A stretch of 64,000 bases of DNA from Bacteroidia bacterium (GTDB lineage Bacteria > Bacteroidota > Bacteroidia > SpSt-205): positions 399,570-463,569 of the forward strand of contig BPGV01000001.1 in NCBI GenBank assembly GCA_026003215.1, in the 5' to 3' direction. A program made the translations under genes and the position numbers. The notes under the pieces are model-generated. The model was not told the origin of the DNA, did no database searches, and was given only the letters and a program-made list of their open reading frames with translations. Positions 3,095-15,625 of the stretch are shown here, in pieces (position 1 is the stretch's first letter; each line of letters opens with the position of its first letter).

Positions 3095-6000
3095 TTACCG
3101 CATCAGCACAAACGCCCCCCAGTGGTACGGCTGCGGATACTGCTGCCTAAATGCTCGCACCGTAGCCTCATATACCGCATCTATCGCCTCGGCCTTCCAC
3201 CCAGCCTCGCCCCAGCCCCGATAAAACGCCTCCATAAACGCACGCGTCGCCGCATCATCCACCTGCCATAACGCCGCCATCACCCGAGACGCCCCCGCCT
3301 CTAAAAATGCCCGCTGCAAACCATACAAACCCTCCCCCTTTATCTCCCCGAGACCTGTCTCACACGCCGACAATACCACCAAGTCCGTCCCAAGAAGGTT
3401 CATCCCACTCGCTTCCTTCGCCGTCAATCGGCCATCCTCTACCCCCGCCGGCGGATACACACTATCCCACACCGCCGCACCCGCAAATAACAAACCCGAA
3501 CCCAATAAACCACTCCTCGCCCCAGCATCATAGTACCCATGCGTCGCTATATGTACCACCCTCGGCGATACCGCACCCTTCACCACTTCCTCCCGCGCAG
3601 CGGCACCCGTCACCGCCTCCACACCCAATAGCTGGGCCACCGCCCGCGCCTCCGCTTCCGCCTCGGGCAACGGGGGTATCCCATACGGGAAAAAACGACT
3701 GCCCCGCGCCGGCTGCCCAGCTGGCGCCTCCCCTCCAAAATCAGGACCACCTACCACCACCGGCCTTCTCCCCTCTCCCCGCCGCTTGGTCACGACCAGC
3801 CGTCGGCTGGTCGCTACATAGCTCACCCCATACCGCTCTATCACATACCGACACCCATCATACAAAGTCGCTACATTCACCCGATAATACACCCCATCCG
3901 GCGACACATAGACCCGCCTAATGCCTCTCGGAAGCACGCTATCCACCGGTGCCCACAGTAGCTCGTACGCCTTCCCAGTCACCTGCACCCCCGGCGAACG
4001 CAACAGCTCATACACGCGCTCCCACCGCTCCTCCTCTGCCAGCCCTATCCGCCGCACCAAAAGCCGTATATCCACCCCCCGCCGCCCCGGAATCAAGACG
4101 TAGTACAGATACCCTACCGTATCCTTATCCGCTATGCGCACTATCTCTACTACGGCCTCCCCCCGCCGCAGCGCAGGATCCCCCTCCCGCTCTATGTCCG
4201 GCAAAAAGCTACGCACCTCCGGCAGGCGCCGCGCCAGCTCCGCCTCCGCGGCCTCTGCCTCCTTCTGCACCCGCCCCGCCTGCTCGTAGTCCTCTCGTAG
4301 CATCAGCGCCGCATACTGCTGCGTCAGCCGCAGCCACCGCTGATACAACGCCTGCGTCACACTATCCCCACTCTGCTCCGCCAAATACCGAAGCCCCTCC
4401 ACCGAACTCAGCACCAGTCCCTTCACACTCCGAGCTGTACGATACCCCAGCCGTAAAAGCTCAGGATTGGCTAACCCGCGCTCCCCCACATAGCGCTGAA
4501 AATCCACAAAACGTCCCATGAGATTATTCTCCAAAAACGCCAGCTGGTGCGCCCCCGCAAGCCCTACAAACTCCCGCCGTATCAGCCCAAAGGTGCCCCG
4601 TATCACCTCGCCCCATAAACTATCCGCTACACCGTATTTACCCTGCGGCGCACAGACCAAGGCTAAGCCATTAACAAATATCAGGTAATCCGGATGCTCC
4701 CCACCCAACGCACGATACCATGCCCCAGTTACTACCCTAAACAAACTCTCCGCTGCTGCATAACGCCCTTGATGGTGATATACATTCGCCAAGTTATTCA
4801 ACGAATGTAGATATGCCGCGTGCTCTCTACCCAACATGCGATAACGGACTTCAGCAACCAGCTTATGCAGACTCTCTGCCTGTACATACCGCCCTTGGGC
4901 ATTATATAAACTTGCCAAGTTGTGCAGCGAACGCAAATAATCAGGATGCTCCATACCCAACACACGATGTTGTACCCCAGTTATTACCTTGAACAAACTC
5001 TCTGCCTCCACATACCGCCCTTGATTGTAATACACAAGCGCCAGGTTATTTAGCGAACGCAGATAATCAGGATGCTCCCCGCCCAACATGCGATAACAGG
5101 CTCCGGCCACCACCTTATGCAAACTCTCCGCCTCTACATACCGCCCTTGGGCGTCGTATAAACTTGCCAGGTTATTCAGCGAACTCAGATACGCCGGATG
5201 CTCCCCACCTAACACACGGTACTGTATTACGGTCACCGCTTTATACAAACTTTCCGCCTCTATATACCGTCCTTGTTCATAATACATACTCGCTATGCTA
5301 TTTAGCGAAATCAGATACATAGGATGCTCCCCGCCTAGCACACGATACTGTACTCCGGCCACTACCCTATGCAAACTCTCCGCCTCTATATACCGTCCTT
5401 GATTTCCATACACAATCGCTAAGTTATGCAGCGAACCCAAATAGTCCGGATGCTCTCCCCCTAACACACGGTACTGTACTCCGTCCACCACCTTATACAA
5501 ACTCTCCGCCTCTACATACCGCCCTTGATTGTCATATAAAACCGCCAAGTTATTCAGTGAACTCAGATAATCCGGATGCTCTCCCCCTAACACACGATGC
5601 TGTACTCCGGCCACCACCTTATACAAGCTCTCCGCCTCCACATACCGCCCTTGATCACTATACGCATTCGCCAAGTTATTCAGCGAAGCTAAATAGTGCG
5701 GGTGCTCCGGGCCTAACTTACGCCGACGTATCTGTATCACCTTCTTGAAAAGACTCTCTGCAGCTTCGTAAGAACCCTGGTAATACCATGCCGTCGCCAA
5801 AAGATGCCCTACACCTGCATACACCACCGAGTCCATCCGCCCCAGCCGACCCAAAACCCCCATAAGAGTATCCCAAAGACCCTCAGCAGCAGAATACCTT
5901 CCCATTATGAAATAAGCCCCTCCTACCCATGCCTGTACCGCTACCCAACTATTCGTATCCCGCAGCTTGAGCGATAGCTCAGCGCCTTTGGCGGCCCATG

Positions 6001-6217
6001 CCTCGAGTTCCCCTACCTTCCGCTGCTGGGCTAAACACTCCGCCCCCCCTATGTACGCTCGTAAGCGCACACTATCTGACCCTCCCCCCTGCCGCACCAA
6101 AGAGTCATATAGGACAAAAGCCTCGGCATACTTGCTTGCTTGGCGCAGGCTATCCGCCTGCTGCATTAGATTCTGAGCCCCTAACAAAGCAACCAAGCCC
6201 CCCATAGCCCATCGCAT
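3095..6217 (-). CDS. exported TPR-CHAT caspase-like protein (copy 2)
   Basis: A 1040-residue paralog of the next gene downstream. It has a signal peptide at residues 1-15 (ending LLGAQ), nine full 42-residue TPRs, a linker and a CHAT domain with His about 893 (HIATHGYYD) and Cys about 952 (SACETG). The C-terminal domains of the two copies are nearly identical, while the TPRs differ in number and sequence. This pattern fits a recent duplication or gene conversion of the enzyme part with divergence of the recognition part (inference). The start is ATG 6217, because TACCTTTG lies 4 bases upstream; an in-frame start nine codons earlier lies beyond that box. The gene diverges from the SIS isomerase gene across a 56-base gap. 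Confidence 0.93.
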   Translation of the reverse strand: MRWAMGGLVALLGAQNLMQQADSLRQASKYAEAFVLYDSLVRQGGGSDSVRLRAYIGGAECLAQQRKVGELEAWAAKGAELSLKLRDTNSWVAVQAWVGGAYFIMGRYSAAEGLWDTLMGVLGRLGRMDSVVYAGVGHLLATAWYYQGSYEAAESLFKKVIQIRRRKLGPEHPHYLASLNNLANAYSDQGRYVEAESLYKVVAGVQHRVLGGEHPDYLSSLNNLAVLYDNQGRYVEAESLYKVVDGVQYRVLGGEHPDYLGSLHNLAIVYGNQGRYIEAESLHRVVAGVQYRVLGGEHPMYLISLNSIASMYYEQGRYIEAESLYKAVTVIQYRVLGGEHPAYLSSLNNLASLYDAQGRYVEAESLHKVVAGACYRMLGGEHPDYLRSLNNLALVYYNQGRYVEAESLFKVITGVQHRVLGMEHPDYLRSLHNLASLYNAQGRYVQAESLHKLVAEVRYRMLGREHAAYLHSLNNLANVYHHQGRYAAAESLFRVVTGAWYRALGGEHPDYLIFVNGLALVCAPQGKYGVADSLWGEVIRGTFGLIRREFVGLAGAHQLAFLENNLMGRFVDFQRYVGERGLANPELLRLGYRTARSVKGLVLSSVEGLRYLAEQSGDSVTQALYQRWLRLTQQYAALMLREDYEQAGRVQKEAEAAEAELARRLPEVRSFLPDIEREGDPALRRGEAVVEIVRIADKDTVGYLYYVLIPGRRGVDIRLLVRRIGLAEEERWERVYELLRSPGVQVTGKAYELLWAPVDSVLPRGIRRVYVSPDGVYYRVNVATLYDGCRYVIERYGVSYVATSRRLVVTKRRGEGRRPVVVGGPDFGGEAPAGQPARGSRFFPYGIPPLPEAEAEARAVAQLLGVEAVTGAAAREEVVKGAVSPRVVHIATHGYYDAGARSGLLGSGLLFAGAAVWDSVYPPAGVEDGRLTAKEASGMNLLGTDLVVLSACETGLGEIKGEGLYGLQRAFLEAGASRVMAALWQVDDAATRAFMEAFYRGWGEAGWKAEAIDAVYEATVRAFRQQYPQPYHWGAFVLMR
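4637..5770 (-). repeat. nine 126-bp TPR-coding tandem repeats
   Basis: Repeats of 126 bases. On the plus strand the marker CATACCGCCCTTG recurs at this period, for example at 4885 and 5011. Neighbouring units are very similar, as expected for expansion by unequal crossing-over. This is coding DNA, not a CRISPR array. Confidence 0.9.
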
Positions 6218-6221
6218 GGGA

Positions 6222-6229
6222 CAAAGGTA
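6222..6229 (-). promoter_or_regulatory. -7 box TACCTTTG of CHAT copy 2
   Basis: It ends 4 bases before ATG 6217. Confidence 0.6.
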
Positions 6230-6261
6230 GACCTTCCCGCACAAGGCACTGAAAAAATCTC

Positions 6262-9795: not shown

Positions 9796-11985
9796 CTACT
9801 CCTCTTTTTTTGCTGAGAAGCTATACGCCATTACTACGCGGATTTGCCTGCCAGGGTTATCGGCAAAGAATCGCATGAGGTTAGGGTAAGGCCTGTACCT
9901 ACGATTGAGGAGGTTGTCTCCGCTCAGGGTGAGGGTCCACTCCTTGTGGCGATACTGGAGGAAGGCGGAAAGGAGGCCATAGCCGGGAGGCGGAGGGAGG
10001 TACTCAGCCGGCTGGGCATAGCGCACCTGCCGGAAAACTTGACTCCAACTAAGCTTGCAGAGCCAAGGACCTTTCTCCCACCGAAGGGCTGAAGTAACAG
10101 TGGGGCCCGGCAAAAGTGGCATAGGATACCCTCGCAGGAGGCGTACCTCTCCCCAAAGCCCCTGTCCCTGCACTTCGCCGAAAAAGTCCCCCCAAAGTCG
10201 GCGCTCCCAGCGAACACTCCAACTGCTCCACAGGGCTGCTCCCTGCACATACCGCAGCGTGAGAGCCGCTCCCCGCAGCGAAAGCATCGGTTCGCCCAGC
10301 TGCCCCCAAATCCACGCAGGACTATAATATACCGCCCCCTGTAAGGCTATGGAAGGGCCGGCAAGCGTTCCTCGCAAAGAGAAGGTAGGTTCAGGGGTGA
10401 GGGTATTTGCGCCTATATCCAAGGTAGCTTGGGCTTGGTGGTAGCCGTAGGCGTAGAGTTCAGCGGGATTGGGGGCCCGAGAGGTAAAAACCCCTTGCAG
10501 TTGGAGGCGGTAGTTATGGGAAACCGCAAAACTTCGGGTTAGCTCTGCCGCGGCGGGTAGGAAGAAATGGCGCCGGCTGCCAGCTGAGCGGCCCTCCCGC
10601 AGGATGACCCCCTCGTAAAAATCGTATAAAAGCGGTTCTATGCGAAGGCCCCCTTCCCAAAGTGCGTGGCGGTAGAGCAAGAAGGCCCCTCCCTGCCATC
10701 GCACGTAGCCCGGGATAAAGTACGCATATTGGCGGTAGTTTCGCTGATACTGAGCGAAAACTCCGCACAAGAGCGGGCTCTTTTCGTACGAGAGTTGGAC
10801 AAAATGCGAGGTAAGCTGAAGGTCTAAAGCCAAACCGCTAAGGGCATACAGCCCTTGGGCGTCTTTTTCTTGGCGACGGTTGTATTGGCGGCCATAGGTG
10901 AGGGTAAGGAGTGCTTCATTAGGGAGAACATGCCCTACGGAGAGAGTCCAAAGTTCGTGCACTACCTGCTGAAAAGGCGGCTGTATCTGGTACGAAAATT
11001 GGGAGGTCACGAGGGGCACTGGGGAAGCCACCGCCCGTTCTAAGTCGGAGAGATTCCCTACATGCATGCCTTGGAATATGCCTAAGTCGGCGTTGTATTG
11101 CGCGTAGAAGGTACGGAGCTGCCAGCGCGACCATAACCGCATGAGGGTGAAGCTCCCGTGAAGCTGACGGGAAGCGGTGCCTGTAAGGAAATAAGACGGT
11201 GTGCGCCAGGTGCCTCCCCGACTCAAAGTACCTTGGAAGCGATAGCCCCATCCCCGAAGCGTACCTTGAAGGCGACCGGAAAAAAGCCCGCCTTGGCCAT
11301 TCCAAAAGCCGCTGGCTAAGAAACGCCCCTCTATCGGAGCTAAACAGCACAGCGAAGGGAAAGGCAAGAGGACACTGCCTCCGATGGCTTCTGTGCCGTG
11401 GCGCACCGGAGAAGGGCCTACATGGACTTCTATTTCTTCGGCGCTGAAGGGGTCTATCTCTGGGGCGTGGTCTTCGCCCCACTGCTGGGAAGCCAGCGGC
11501 TGGCCCGCTTGCCAATACGCTATACGCGTGCCCCTGAGACCTTCTATGACAGGCTTCTGAAGAAGCGGACCTGCCCAAGAAAGTGTCACCCCCGGCACCT
11601 GGCTAAGCCAAGTAGCCAGGCTGGCCTCTGGTACAGAAAGCTGAGCTAACCTCGGTACGTGTTCTGCGCGCGGCAGGTGCTCCGCTATCACTACTTCATG
11701 CAGCCGATGTGCCTCTCCAAGGAAAAACGCCCCTGCAACAGGCACCGTAATGAGCGTCTCTGCTACCGTATGCTCGCCTGCATATACTCGCAAGAGATAT
11801 TGCCCGGGGCATACGGCCCGGAAACGAAAAAAGCCCGTACTATCTATGGGTTCTCGCAAGCCCGAAGGCTTCAGCTCGACCACGCCCCCAGGCCAATCGG
11901 CATACCCCCTCACCTCATACCACGCTGTACAGGGGGCTTGCGTCCAAAGCCAACCCCACCCTAAGAGGAGCCACCATTTTGCCAC
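9796..11985 (-). CDS. TonB-dependent outer-membrane receptor, possibly BtuB-like
   Basis: A 729-residue receptor. A short signal peptide is followed by a carboxypeptidase-regulatory-like domain (about residues 20-100), a plug domain (about 105-210, with IEGLRGTRIAYW and the GPSPVRHGTEAIGG region), and a 22-strand barrel ending in an aromatic strand (VVMAYSFSAKKEE). It starts at GTG 11985, with the -7 box TATTTTTG 7 bases upstream. It diverges from a DUF6580 membrane protein and a BtuG-like beta-propeller lipoprotein. That arrangement suggests uptake of cobalamin or another corrinoid; other metal chelates remain possible. The gap is too short for a cobalamin riboswitch. Confidence 0.88.
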   Translation of the reverse strand: MAKWWLLLGWGWLWTQAPCTAWYEVRGYADWPGGVVELKPSGLREPIDSTGFFRFRAVCPGQYLLRVYAGEHTVAETLITVPVAGAFFLGEAHRLHEVVIAEHLPRAEHVPRLAQLSVPEASLATWLSQVPGVTLSWAGPLLQKPVIEGLRGTRIAYWQAGQPLASQQWGEDHAPEIDPFSAEEIEVHVGPSPVRHGTEAIGGSVLLPFPSLCCLAPIEGRFLASGFWNGQGGLFSGRLQGTLRGWGYRFQGTLSRGGTWRTPSYFLTGTASRQLHGSFTLMRLWSRWQLRTFYAQYNADLGIFQGMHVGNLSDLERAVASPVPLVTSQFSYQIQPPFQQVVHELWTLSVGHVLPNEALLTLTYGRQYNRRQEKDAQGLYALSGLALDLQLTSHFVQLSYEKSPLLCGVFAQYQRNYRQYAYFIPGYVRWQGGAFLLYRHALWEGGLRIEPLLYDFYEGVILREGRSAGSRRHFFLPAAAELTRSFAVSHNYRLQLQGVFTSRAPNPAELYAYGYHQAQATLDIGANTLTPEPTFSLRGTLAGPSIALQGAVYYSPAWIWGQLGEPMLSLRGAALTLRYVQGAALWSSWSVRWERRLWGDFFGEVQGQGLWGEVRLLRGYPMPLLPGPTVTSALRWEKGPWLCKLSWSQVFRQVRYAQPAEYLPPPPGYGLLSAFLQYRHKEWTLTLSGDNLLNRRYRPYPNLMRFFADNPGRQIRVVMAYSFSAKKEE

Positions 11986-11992
11986 AAGGTGG

Positions 11993-12000
11993 CAAAAATA
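11993..12000 (-). promoter_or_regulatory. -7 box TATTTTTG of the TonB receptor gene
   Basis: It ends 7 bases before GTG 11985 and shares the 45-base gap with the divergent promoter at 12019. Confidence 0.5.
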
Positions 12001-12018
12001 CAGAAACCCTGAGCTGCG

Positions 12019-12026
12019 TACCTTTG
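12019..12026 (+). promoter_or_regulatory. -7 box TACCTTTG of the B12/purH/mre operon
   Basis: It ends 4 bases before GTG 12031. No internal gap in the following genes up to 21826 is large enough to be obviously another promoter region, except perhaps the 16655-16762 stretch. Confidence 0.6.
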
Positions 12027-12030
12027 CACA

Positions 12031-12552
12031 GTGCGAAACACGGTACTCGTAGTGAGCCTCCTTTTTCTCTTAGGTATAGCGGGGCGCCTGCTTCCCCACC
12101 CCCCGAACTTCACCCCCATGGAAGCGGTAGCGCTCTTTAGTGGTGCCTGGCTGGGGGGGAGAATAGGAGCCTTTTTGGTACCCATCGCCATTTTAGGGAT
12201 TACAGATTGGGTTTTAGGCTGGCATGGCTTATGGCCTTTTACTTGGGGGGCCACTCTTATAGGGGTCGTTTTGGGAAGGTACCTCCTTTCTAAGCGTAGG
12301 CTTCTTTCCGTCCTTGGGGTAAGCCTACTCCAAGCGTGTATATTTTTCGGGGTGACCAACTTTGGGGTGTGGCTGCAAGGCTATTACGGGTACACTTGGA
12401 CGGGGCTTTGGGCTTGCTATACAGCGGCTATACCTTTTTTCCACTACCAAGTATTTGGCGCATGGACCTATGGGTTGGTACTGTGGGGCATAGAGTGGGC
12501 AGTGCGGCGTAGGGTGCAGGCAGCCGTGGTACCCTCGTCTCCCCATGCGTAA
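12031..12552 (+). CDS. DUF6580-family membrane protein
   Basis: A 173-residue protein with about five hydrophobic segments. Family hallmarks are the early RLLPHPPNFTPMEAVALF segment and FGVTNFGVWL in the fourth helix. Its GTG start is 4 bases after TACCTTTG. The 3' end overlaps the lipoprotein gene by 8 bases. The family is uncharacterised but looks like a small substrate-binding membrane component. Here it lies between a TonB receptor and a BtuG-like lipoprotein, so I infer a role in the same uptake route, perhaps inner-membrane passage of a corrinoid. Confidence 0.75.
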   Translation: MRNTVLVVSLLFLLGIAGRLLPHPPNFTPMEAVALFSGAWLGGRIGAFLVPIAILGITDWVLGWHGLWPFTWGATLIGVVLGRYLLSKRRLLSVLGVSLLQACIFFGVTNFGVWLQGYYGYTWTGLWACYTAAIPFFHYQVFGAWTYGLVLWGIEWAVRRRVQAAVVPSSPHA

Positions 12553-13597
12553 GTGGGCTTTTGTCGTAAGTGTGCTGGTCTTTCTCATCGCTTGCGTCCG
12601 TAAGCCGAAAGCCGAGGCAGAGACACCGCAGCCCGCTTACCAAGGGCTTTTCGTTCTAAATGAAGGCCAATGGACCCTCAGTAATGCCTCGCTGGACGTA
12701 ATAAGCCCTGAGGGGAGGTACTATGAAAATGCGTATCAGAGCGTAAATCACAAGCCCTTAGGGGATGTAGCTAACCATTGGCTGCGGCTGGGTGATACCC
12801 TCTGGATAGTGCTCAATGGCTCCCGGCTGCTGCGTTGTGTGAGTCTCCCTTCTCTCCGAGAGGTATATACGCTCACCTTTCCACCAAGTGCCAGTCCGCG
12901 GGAGTTTTTATGGCTTAGTTCGGACAAGGCGTATGTGAGTTCGCTCACGGATGGCACGCTGTATCGGGTCAATCCTCGCACAGGAGTGCTCCTACCCCCA
13001 CATATTCCCGTAGAAAATTACAGCGAAGGCCTGCTTTTGGCCGGAGGGAAAGTTTGGCTTACCTGTGGCAACTACGCCTATCCCGCCCGCAATAATAAAG
13101 TAGCCTGCATAGACCCTGTGCGTGACAGCGTGCTGTACTATATTACCCTTCCGCGGGAAAACCCCGGGCCACTAACCCTCCTACCCAACGGAAAACTCTT
13201 AGTGGGCTGCCGAGGCAACTACGCCGACCTCAAAGGCCTCCTGGTGCACATAGACCCTGCCAATGGCACTATCACACGCACCACAGAGCTTCTCACCAGT
13301 GTGTATCACCTGCAGCGGTACGGCGATGAAGTGTATATGCTCACCGACTCGGGAGTAAGCCGCTACCTCTGGCAAAACGGCGTGGTGGAATACGGGTTTT
13401 TGTCCCGCAGCCAGTTAGGGTTACGGCCCGAGGAACTTTTGTACGGATTTTCGTATGACTCGGTAAGCCAGAGTTGGATTGTAGCCAACGCCCGCGCAGG
13501 CGGCGTTCGAGGCGAACTCATTTTTATCAGAAATGGTTCGCCTTATGCTCGGCAAGAAGTAGGTGTTTTTCCTTCCCGTACTTTGCGCTACCCATGA
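12545..13597 (+). CDS. BtuG-like (YncE/DUF5074) beta-propeller surface lipoprotein
   Basis: A 350-residue protein. A lipoprotein signal has the lipobox FLIAC with Cys 17. The rest is a run of about seven blade-like repeats typical of YncE/DUF5074 propellers (VLNEGQW, a PLGDVANHW segment, IDPANGTITRTTEL). BtuG lipoproteins of Bacteroides cap BtuB and capture vitamin B12 at very high affinity (known). The match to BtuG is by fold, lipidation and neighbourhood, not proven. The stop overlaps the next ATG by 4 bases. Confidence 0.75.
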   Translation: MRKWAFVVSVLVFLIACVRKPKAEAETPQPAYQGLFVLNEGQWTLSNASLDVISPEGRYYENAYQSVNHKPLGDVANHWLRLGDTLWIVLNGSRLLRCVSLPSLREVYTLTFPPSASPREFLWLSSDKAYVSSLTDGTLYRVNPRTGVLLPPHIPVENYSEGLLLAGGKVWLTCGNYAYPARNNKVACIDPVRDSVLYYITLPRENPGPLTLLPNGKLLVGCRGNYADLKGLLVHIDPANGTITRTTELLTSVYHLQRYGDEVYMLTDSGVSRYLWQNGVVEYGFLSRSQLGLRPEELLYGFSYDSVSQSWIVANARAGGVRGELIFIRNGSPYARQEVGVFPSRTLRYP

Positions 13598-14223
13598 AAG
13601 AAGAACTCCCCAAGAACGGTATCCTCGTAGTAGGAACAGGTACCTTAGCCCGCTGGGCCGCTCAGCTCTTAGAGGCCGCCGGCGAACTGGTGTATGGCTT
13701 CGTGCCAACACGGGAGCACCCCGAGAAAGAACAAGACAATCTCTCTATTCTCCCCCCCATCACGCGCGCCCGCATGTGGAAGCTCATCAAGCAGCATCAG
13801 GCCGATTATGTGATTGCCCTGGTAGACCCCGTAGCTCGGGAACGTATGGCCACCGCTCTTTTTGAAAAGACCCAGCGGGTCGCCCGTCCTGTCATCCATG
13901 ACTCGGTTTATGTAGCCCCTACGGCCAGGCTCGGCGGCGGCGTACTCCTTTTCCCGCATGTAGTGATAGGGATTTCTTGCGACATAGGGGGCTATGTGCT
14001 CATAGAAAGCCTCACCGCGGTCGGCGCAGGTACAAAGGTTGACGATTTCGTCAATATCGGCAGCGGCTGCCAGATTGGAGAAAACTGCGAGATTGCTTCC
14101 TACGCATGGATTGGCCGAGGATGTGTGATTTATGAAGGCGTGCGTATCGGAAAAGGAGCCCAAATCCGCCCCGGCAGCATCGTACGCGACCATGTCAAAC
14201 CCGGAGAGATTTATGGCGAGTGA
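13594..14223 (+). CDS. PglD-like sugar/nucleotide acyltransferase with left-handed beta-helix
   Basis: A 209-residue protein. The N-terminal Rossmann-like part has GILVVGTGTLARWAAQLL (PglD/NeuD type). From about residue 95, hexapeptide repeats (VLLFPHVVIGI, VNIGSGCQIGEN, AWIGRGCVIYEG, GAQIRPGSIV) build an LbH domain. Relatives acetylate amino groups of UDP-sugars or sialic acid using acetyl-CoA. The start at ATG 13594 overlaps the upstream stop; a longer in-frame start at 13474 would lie inside the lipoprotein gene. It overlaps purH by 11 bases. The substrate is unknown. Confidence 0.8.
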   Translation: MKEELPKNGILVVGTGTLARWAAQLLEAAGELVYGFVPTREHPEKEQDNLSILPPITRARMWKLIKQHQADYVIALVDPVARERMATALFEKTQRVARPVIHDSVYVAPTARLGGGVLLFPHVVIGISCDIGGYVLIESLTAVGAGTKVDDFVNIGSGCQIGENCEIASYAWIGRGCVIYEGVRIGKGAQIRPGSIVRDHVKPGEIYGE

Positions 14224-15625
14224 ACCGATTCAGGCGCTTCTCTCGGTGTGGCATAAAGAAGAGGCCCTTCCCTTAGCGAAAACTATCCTTGAGGTAGGCG
14301 GAACGCTATGGGCCTCGGCAGGCACAGCCCGATTTTTGCAGGAAAAAGGCCTACCCGCCCAAAGCATAGAGGGACTCACGGGATTTGCCGAGCTGTTGGG
14401 AGGGCGCGTCAAGACCCTTCATCCGGCGATTTTCTCCGGCATCTTAGCTCGTCCTGGCGAGCCACTCCCCGAGGGCTTCCCCCAATGGAACCTCGTCGCC
14501 GTGGAACTTTACCCCTTCACCCCCGAAGCCCCAGACTGGATAGAACTCATAGACATCGGGGGCGTAAGCCTCTTGCGTGCCGCCGCAAAGAACTTCGCGC
14601 GCGTCTGGGCCATAGCCGGGGTAGCCCACTTCCCGCAAGCTATACAAGATCTACAAATCTATAAAGGACTCCCACCCCAAATGGTGCGTTATAGGTATGC
14701 AGCTGAAACTTTTGCCCATTGTGCGCGCTATGATGCACATATAAGCGCGGCTTTCTTGGGAAAAACCCCAACGGAAAGCGCCACATACCTACGCTATGGA
14801 GAAAATCCTCATCAAAAGGCCTACTTCTTGGGCAAGCTTCCAGAAGTGGTTGGGCAAAAACAGCCTTCTTACAATAATCTTTTGGACATAGAGACGGGGC
14901 TTCGGATTGTACGGGGCTGGCCTAAGCCGGCCTGCGTGATCCTCAAGCATACCCAGCCCTGTGGTGCTGCCTTTGCAGAGGATCCCGTAGAAGCGTATCA
15001 GCATGCTCTGGCGGCTGACCCCGTGGCAGCATACGGCGGCGTGGTCGTGTGTAACTTTCCTGTGGATGTGCAGTGGGCCCAAGCTACCAAAGGCCACTTT
15101 ATAGAAGTCATAGCAGCTCCTCACTTTACCCGCGAGGCCAAAGAATGGCTTCAAGCCCATAAAAGCGCCCTACTCGTAGAGACAGAAGGGGTATCCTCTC
15201 CAGGGTGGGAAGTGCGCTCGGCCGTGGGCGGCCTCTTGTGGCAGGAAAGTCACCTGGCTGAGGAACCCTCCTTGGATGAGACCCTACGGTGGGCGGCTCG
15301 CCTCCTGCGGAGCTTATATTCCAACGCTATTGTGGTCGTTCATGAAGGCGAGCTTGTAGCAGCGGCCAGCGGCCAAACTTCCCGCATAGAAGCGGTACGA
15401 TTAGCCCTTGCCCGCGCCCAGCAGCGGCCCTTTCCGCCAGAAAAGCTCCTCTTGGCCAGTGATGGATTTTTTCCTTTCACGGACAGCCTGGAGGCCATTT
15501 ATCAAGCAGGTATTCGCCAGGTGGCCGTACCCCCCGGCGGGAAACGCCAAGCCGAGATAGAACATTTCGCCCGTACTCACGATATTTGCTTGACTTTTCT
15601 CACTTACCGACATTTTAGACACTGA
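14213..15625 (+). CDS. purH: bifunctional AICAR transformylase/IMP cyclohydrolase
   Basis: A 470-residue cytoplasmic enzyme for the last two steps of IMP synthesis. The N-terminal MGS-like IMP cyclohydrolase domain has ILEVGGTLWASAGTARFL. The AICAR transformylase domain has the catalytic LKHTQPCG segment, DPVAAYGGVV, DGFFPFTDS and the C-terminal YRHFRH. It is a little shorter than the usual 505-530 residues, with both domains complete in motif content. The ATG at 14213 lies inside the end of the PglD-like gene. Being upstream of mreB is usual in Bacteroidota. Confidence 0.95.
   Translation: MASEPIQALLSVWHKEEALPLAKTILEVGGTLWASAGTARFLQEKGLPAQSIEGLTGFAELLGGRVKTLHPAIFSGILARPGEPLPEGFPQWNLVAVELYPFTPEAPDWIELIDIGGVSLLRAAAKNFARVWAIAGVAHFPQAIQDLQIYKGLPPQMVRYRYAAETFAHCARYDAHISAAFLGKTPTESATYLRYGENPHQKAYFLGKLPEVVGQKQPSYNNLLDIETGLRIVRGWPKPACVILKHTQPCGAAFAEDPVEAYQHALAADPVAAYGGVVVCNFPVDVQWAQATKGHFIEVIAAPHFTREAKEWLQAHKSALLVETEGVSSPGWEVRSAVGGLLWQESHLAEEPSLDETLRWAARLLRSLYSNAIVVVHEGELVAAASGQTSRIEAVRLALARAQQRPFPPEKLLLASDGFFPFTDSLEAIYQAGIRQVAVPPGGKRQAEIEHFARTHDICLTFLTYRHFRH

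Follow-up and report, generated by a model that had tools for sequence, protein, structure and literature searches.

DUF6580 is very probably a BtuM-like importer of vitamin B12 across the inner membrane of bacteria lacking BtuCDF

We analyzed a 64,000-nucleotide stretch (positions 399570-463569, referred to as the window) of the one-contig genome of a Bacteroidia bacterium (2.27 Mb, 99.04% complete). In it, a gene for a small membrane protein of the family DUF6580 (PF20221) lies between a divergently oriented gene for a TonB-dependent receptor and a gene for a BtuG-like lipoprotein. Our main conclusion is that DUF6580 is very probably an inner-membrane importer of vitamin B12 in many bacteria without BtuCDF, the ATP-binding cassette (ABC) transporter that usually does this. 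We infer transport from four lines of evidence that together support it strongly, i.e. the near-exclusive distribution of DUF6580 and the FecCD (BtuC-family) permeases, the co-location of DUF6580 with cobalamin riboswitches, the riboswitch-led operons of BtuB, BtuG and DUF6580 genes in other lineages, and a predicted fold like that of the solitary importer BtuM. A preliminary description, made from the sequence of the window alone, had guessed that DUF6580 was the missing inner-membrane partner in a minimal B12 uptake module; the same evidence strongly supports this guess, which is very probably correct and extends far beyond the window.

Distribution of DUF6580 and FecCD permeases

The preliminary description had stated that no btuCDF is present, which is true of the permease across the whole genome, where the FecCD family has 0 matches. 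Among 119 related genomes, DUF6580 was found in 81 and full-length FecCD in 34, with 78 genomes carrying DUF6580 only, 31 FecCD only, three both and seven neither; of the last group, one (G037) measures 0.5 Mb and has no B12-binding domain, and three genomes are less than 85% complete. The survey of DUF6580 against loss of BtuCDF, which the preliminary description had suggested, was run on 392 genomes from this phylum, each at least 90% complete, and gave near-exclusive occurrence: 136 genomes had DUF6580 only, 228 FecCD only, 25 both and three neither (Fisher 1e-74, a value that ignores the kinship of the genomes and is overstated because they are related). Of the 58 families with either gene, 15 consist of DUF6580-only genomes throughout, 29 of FecCD-only genomes throughout, and 14 are mixed. 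Five families have both DUF6580-positive and DUF6580-negative members, and within them FecCD is present in all 18 negatives and in 16 of the 67 positives, in a sum where the three genomes with neither gene are not assigned to a family. This within-family pattern argues for repeated replacement between DUF6580 and FecCD, despite the inflation of the Fisher value by kinship.

In these counts, weak FecCD matches (30 of 283 in the phylum genomes, with E above 1e-30, and 9 of 43 in the relatives) were treated as absence of FecCD, on the grounds of low scores, partial coverage and reading frames that fitted another ABC permease family. The DUF6580 match in G171 fell below the Pfam cut-off and was likewise not counted.

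B12 is needed by this genome, which seems unable to make it. It has two B12-binding domains, one in methylmalonyl-CoA mutase (MCM; equivalog match, 1083 bits) and one in IcmF (795 bits on the part present before the locus end cuts it), and CbiC, a marker of corrin-ring synthesis, is absent from the genome. B12-binding domains occur in 117 of the 119 relatives, and CbiC in three (G044, G084 and G117), none of which has DUF6580. EcfT, the transmembrane partner of the energy-coupling factor (ECF) module, was found in one of the 119 genomes and not in that of the window.

DUF6580 in the B12 regulon of other lineages

DUF6580 occurs at 83 places in the relatives, and at 10 of them a same-strand cobalamin riboswitch stands no more than 7 kb upstream, whereas 0.09 would be expected by chance for a genome size of 3.3 Mb. 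The distances from riboswitch to DUF6580 are 1.5-5.5 kb, and the neighbors in these loci include BtuB-type receptors, BtuG (L054, L061, L086, L125) and a PP-loop ATPase. In a second collection of 80 DUF6580 loci, gathered with a search pattern that contained residue H23, 37 loci were scanned, and in 21 of them DUF6580 lay downstream of a cobalamin riboswitch on its own strand; by batch these were 11 of 11 and 8 of 11 (loci mostly chosen for their neighbors) and 2 of 15 (mostly from the rest). ORF calling missed DUF6580 in three of the 80 loci (L072, L121, L128), two of which were recovered by tblastn.

The order riboswitch, BtuB, (BtuG), DUF6580 recurs in several phyla. In Ignavibacterium (L190) the order is riboswitch, receptor, BtuG, DUF6580; in two verrucomicrobial loci (L198, L202) it is riboswitch, BtuB, PP-loop ATPase, DUF6580, PF01497; and in Neomarinimicrobiota (L189) it is receptor, BtuG, PP-loop ATPase, DUF6580, where a riboswitch was not found. 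The distance from the riboswitch end to DUF6580 can be as short as 110 nt (L181) or 263 nt (L173). For the three receptors of riboswitch-led DUF6580 loci that were tested (L130, L198, L125), the top model was the B12 receptor model TIGR01779.

Several further features of these loci were recorded. In the SAR324 loci L173 and L208 the riboswitch stands just upstream of DUF6580, which in L173 is followed by genes for a 389-aa protein that lacks annotation, a TonB protein and a TonB receptor. The PP-loop ATPase that recurs beside DUF6580 (L053, L054, L061, L075, L152, L168, L189, L198, L202) is of the diphthamide-synthase family (PF01902), and this pairing spans B12-type operons of several phyla. 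Because bacteria are not known to make diphthamide, the ATPase may have a part in salvaging corrinoids, perhaps by forming amides. BtuF-like PF01497 proteins that follow DUF6580 (L198:8556-9485, L202:5418-6344, L089:6620-7585) seem by eye to have no signal peptide and are possibly cytoplasmic corrinoid receivers for the importer. BtuG-like proteins encoded upstream of DUF6580 and behind a cobalamin riboswitch (L053:2620-3939, L059:960-2258, L065:629-1948, and also L201:2507-3823, whose likeness to BtuG is weak, ~1e-3) carry a C-terminal type-9 secretion sorting domain (PF18962 found for L053), and we propose that they are secreted or differently anchored B12 catchers.

Predicted fold of DUF6580 and comparison with BtuM

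The AlphaFold2 model of DUF6580, built from the window protein and 64 relatives, has a pLDDT of 91.7, a pTM of 0.84 and six membrane-length helical stretches. Foldseek alone gave weak matches (best 4hzu_S, E 0.33), and the ranking was obtained by re-aligning Foldseek's own list with VIA-align, which placed first the BtuM of Thiobacillus denitrificans with hydroxycobalamin (8ovv; Z 15.0, root-mean-square deviation (rmsd) 2.7, 156 residues aligned, 17% identity) and second BtuM with cyanocobalamin (8c7p; Z 14.9), followed by other S-components from 13.5 down, CbiM at 9.4, MreD at 8.8 and unrelated rows at 7 or below, with the caution that helical bundles can reach a Z of about 13 by chance. All of the top 20 rows are S-components (CbiM included). 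Absence from the VIA-align list was not taken as negative evidence. Foldseek of viral structures returned nothing useful.

According to PMC6072759, BtuM is a solitary S-component that needs no ECF module to support B12-dependent growth, and Cys80 is its invariant cobalt ligand. DUF6580 resembles it in size (~20 kDa), in its six helices and predicted S-component fold, in occurring in a genome without EcfT, in its linkage to BtuB genes in other lineages and in apparently replacing BtuCDF. A profile of 65 DUF6580 sequences matched no PDB sequence to E 10, and DUF6580 differs from BtuM in having no invariant counterpart of its cysteine; C129 is present in 45 of the 78 DUF6580 sequences of the relatives and in 37 of the 65 in alignment A3, which used 64 of the 80 loci (L152, L176 (internal stop) and several near-duplicates were left out). 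Instead of a cysteine, DUF6580 conserves R19 (78 of the 78 sequences of the relatives), N26, D59 and W114 (77 each) and mostly H23 (61), with H65 in 36. The invariance of H23 in A3 (65 of 65) was rejected as evidence because the pattern that gathered the loci contained H23, and 61 of 78 is the unbiased figure. BtuM is, furthermore, mainly proteobacterial, whereas DUF6580 is found mainly in Bacteroidota and neighboring groups. The structural model suggests that DUF6580 works like BtuM; because it has no invariant cysteine and the profile detected no sequence relation, we do not class it as BtuM. DUF6580 also shares the S-component fold with ECF-CbrT, a B12 transporter of the ECF type, and differs in that no EcfT was found in the genome. 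Compared with BtuCDF, whose permease this genome lacks, DUF6580 is a single small membrane protein proposed for the same position in the pathway, and the two are alternatives across genomes.

The missing cysteine and the lack of a PDB match to the profile weigh against the proposed function, as do the weak Foldseek matches, the origin of the BtuM ranking in Foldseek's own list and the kinship behind the Fisher value. To these must be added that 25 of the 392 genomes carry both DUF6580 and FecCD, that the FecCD family is not specific for BtuC, that at 73 of the 83 DUF6580 places in the relatives the preceding 7 kb showed no cobalamin riboswitch in the same orientation, and that most DUF6580 genes have unrelated neighbors. 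The riboswitch in L160 belongs to a divergent receptor gene and that in L152 lies downstream of DUF6580, before a receptor. In the window's own family (f1), three genomes (L116, L117, L209) have DUF6580 without an adjoining BtuG-like gene, and the receptor in the window, discussed below, does not resemble BtuB in sequence.

The locus in the window

The receptor, DUF6580 and lipoprotein genes (Table 1) are where the preliminary description had put them, with profile matches that agree, and the gap between the divergent start codons has the length it gave. The DUF6580 match to PF20221 scores 144.2 bits against a Pfam cut-off of 27. DUF6580 is present in all 11 other family f1 genomes, so its presence at the locus is not chance; the lipoprotein gene follows it in eight of the 11. 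The DUF6580 and lipoprotein genes overlap by 8 nt, and the lipoprotein and NeuD genes by 4 nt. On the (+) strand the lipoprotein gene is followed by NeuD, PurH and MreB genes, and NeuD and PurH presumably lie outside the uptake function. The tie to purH-mre that had been described is real synteny within the genus; it is probably incidental because DUF6580 has other neighbors outside the genus. Elsewhere in the window, a gene at 3095-6244 (-) encodes a 1049-aa CHAT-domain protein with many TPR repeats (PF12770, PF13374/PF13424).

Table 1. Features of the DUF6580 locus, in window coordinates.
Feature	Position	Strand	Evidence or remark
TonB-dependent receptor, 729 aa	9796-11985	(-)	Plug PF07715, 3.4e-08, 34.4 bits
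Putative -7 box TATTTTTG for receptor	12000-11993	(-)	
Divergent promoter region, 45 nt	11986-12030		between start codons of receptor and DUF6580
Putative -7 box TACCTTTG for DUF6580	12019-12026	(+)	
DUF6580 (PF20221), 173 aa, six transmembrane helices, predicted S-component fold	12031-12552	(+)	profile 5.6e-42
BtuG-like lipoprotein, YncE/BtuG type, 350 aa, predicted seven-bladed propeller	12545-13597	(+)	DUF5074, 1.4e-09
NeuD/PglD-type sugar acyltransferase	13594-14223	(+)	overlapping neighbor
PurH (AICARFT/IMPCHase)	14150-15625	(+)	syntenic neighbor within genus

We take TATTTTTG and TACCTTTG to be -7 boxes of the Bacteroidota type. A TAnCTTTG box ends 3-5 nt 5' of the DUF6580 start codon in all 12 family f1 loci that were read (in L120 as the variant TAACTTCG), and the DUF6580 mRNA is therefore probably near-leaderless, leaving no space for a 5' riboswitch. 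The preliminary description had excluded a riboswitch from the 45-base gap, and a riboswitch scan found no cobalamin riboswitch in the gap, the window or the whole 2.27 Mb genome, nor in any of the 12 family f1 genomes; one is present in 98 of the 119 relatives. A palindrome, TTTTGCCACAAGGTGGCAAAA, at 11977-11997 (found once in the window, where 0.22 occurrences would be expected) was rejected as a candidate operator, since relatives do not keep it as a palindrome and it is accounted for by the receptor promoter and start codon.

The likeness of the lipoprotein to BtuG, suggested earlier, is supported by phmmer, which matched it to BtuG3 (8p97) at 1.3e-19 and to 3dsm at 4.7e-15, both identified as BtuG entries in PMC10404256, with an alignment to BtuG that spans roughly the first two thirds of the protein only. 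Its lipobox is LIAC (FLIAC), with C17 as the cysteine. The predicted model (pLDDT 86.4, pTM 0.81), built from five sequences, matched BtuG1-3 with Z 36.9-38.2 and rmsd 1.9-2.1 for all but one chain; the match to BtuG2 had Z 38.2 and rmsd 1.9 over 302 aligned residues, and the best non-BtuG propeller scored Z 29.5. Sequence and predicted fold thus support a BtuG-like surface lipoprotein, for which we propose corrinoid capture.

Proposed pathway and alternative explanations

We consider it highly likely that the locus as a whole is a short B12 scavenging system of lipoprotein, receptor and DUF6580 importer that serves MCM and IcmF. The BtuG-like lipoprotein would capture corrinoids at the cell surface and deliver them to a TonB-dependent receptor, probably the one encoded divergently; DUF6580, acting like BtuM as a solitary S-component, would bind the corrinoid and carry it through the inner membrane without BtuCDF or an ECF module; and the imported B12 would serve the two enzymes in this auxotrophic genome. 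Passage might be an equilibrium process, drawn inward perhaps by intracellular adenosylation and binding to enzymes.

The receptor is where this scheme is most open to challenge, as it is possible, though doubtful, that the cluster is not one B12 module and that the receptor takes another ligand, leaving only DUF6580 and perhaps the lipoprotein concerned with B12. The best NCBIfam models for the receptor are hemin, hemoglobin and ZnuD receptors, all far under cut-off; its match in the PDB is a weak one to ZnuD; TIGR01779 is not among its matches to E 1; and its score against a profile built from 24 receptors of DUF6580/B12 loci is 11.6 bits. The stretch before its Plug has a weak likeness to carboxypeptidase-regulatory/fn3 domains. 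It was not seen beside DUF6580 in six of the 11 other family f1 relatives, yet it stays divergent to it in the other five (two of these loci being cut by contig ends), and BtuG proteins are described in PMC10404256 as lids of TonB receptors. The best-scoring receptor of the genome with the same profile (156.5 bits) is encoded at G000:C1:555718-556020, covered by L034 and by L211, an additional 12.3 kb stretch of this genome used alongside the family searches. We did not adopt it as the true BtuB because the lipoprotein encoded next to it looks by eye like a heme-uptake partner of the HmuY kind; the receptor is kept as a candidate alternative receptor.

For the receptor in the window, a role as outer-membrane partner of the lipoprotein is presumed from its position, as only adjacency links it to B12. 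The preliminary description had likened the receptor and lipoprotein to the BtuB-BtuG complex of Bacteroides; the parallel extends to a BtuG-like propeller lipoprotein and a TonB receptor with a Plug domain, but the receptor is not BtuB-like by sequence, the genes are divergent instead of forming one operon, and there is no cobalamin riboswitch. The minimal uptake module is supported in its DUF6580 and BtuG parts, and not in the identification of the receptor as BtuB by sequence. It had also been reasoned that pairing of DUF6580 mainly with other receptors would speak against the module; such pairing was not found, yet most DUF6580 genes have no adjoining receptor.

It is improbable that DUF6580 is instead a membrane protein of the B12 regulon with some other job (corrinoid sensor, remodeling helper or membrane anchor), B12 crossing by an unrecognized system. 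A processing role is conceivable from the operons that place DUF6580 with the PP-loop ATPase PF01902 and the BtuF-like PF01497, and S-component folds are also found in receptors (PMC11109136). However, the near-perfect exclusion of FecCD is what would be expected of a replacement permease, and the best structural match supports B12-dependent growth (PMC6072759). Less probable still is that DUF6580 transports a different cobalamin-regulon substrate, whether cobalt, a lower-ligand base or solely a precursor of corrinoids: the cobalt S-component CbiM shares the fold and cobalamin riboswitches also control cobalt transporters, but CbiM scores far lower than BtuM, BtuB and BtuG in the same operons accept entire corrinoids, and cobalt import would not help DUF6580 carriers because, judged by the distribution of CbiC, they cannot build the corrin ring.

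Significance

Many B12-dependent Gram-negative bacteria have BtuB without BtuCDF, and the entry of B12 into the cytoplasm is described as largely open in PMC6072759. Among 5.39 million papers, which include only a minority of subscription papers and preprints, none mentions DUF6580 or PF20221, and wider searches turned up no paper that names such a family. We think it likely that DUF6580 represents a second family of B12 importers that consist of one protein and use no ECF module, with a ligand other than the cysteine of BtuM (candidates H23 or H65), and that about two fifths of the phylum rely on it as their main route for B12 through the inner membrane; by record labels it occurs also in Ignavibacteria, Verrucomicrobia, SAR324, Neomarinimicrobiota and some proteobacterial bins. 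If this is true, a conserved family of no known function would fill the inner-membrane gap in B12 uptake for a large share of Bacteroidota, and B12 auxotrophy and exchange in communities would become more predictable from genomes. Single-protein S-component transport would then be wider than BtuM and some BioY proteins, and DUF6580 would provide a second system in which to ask how such a protein transports a large cofactor when no ATPase is involved.

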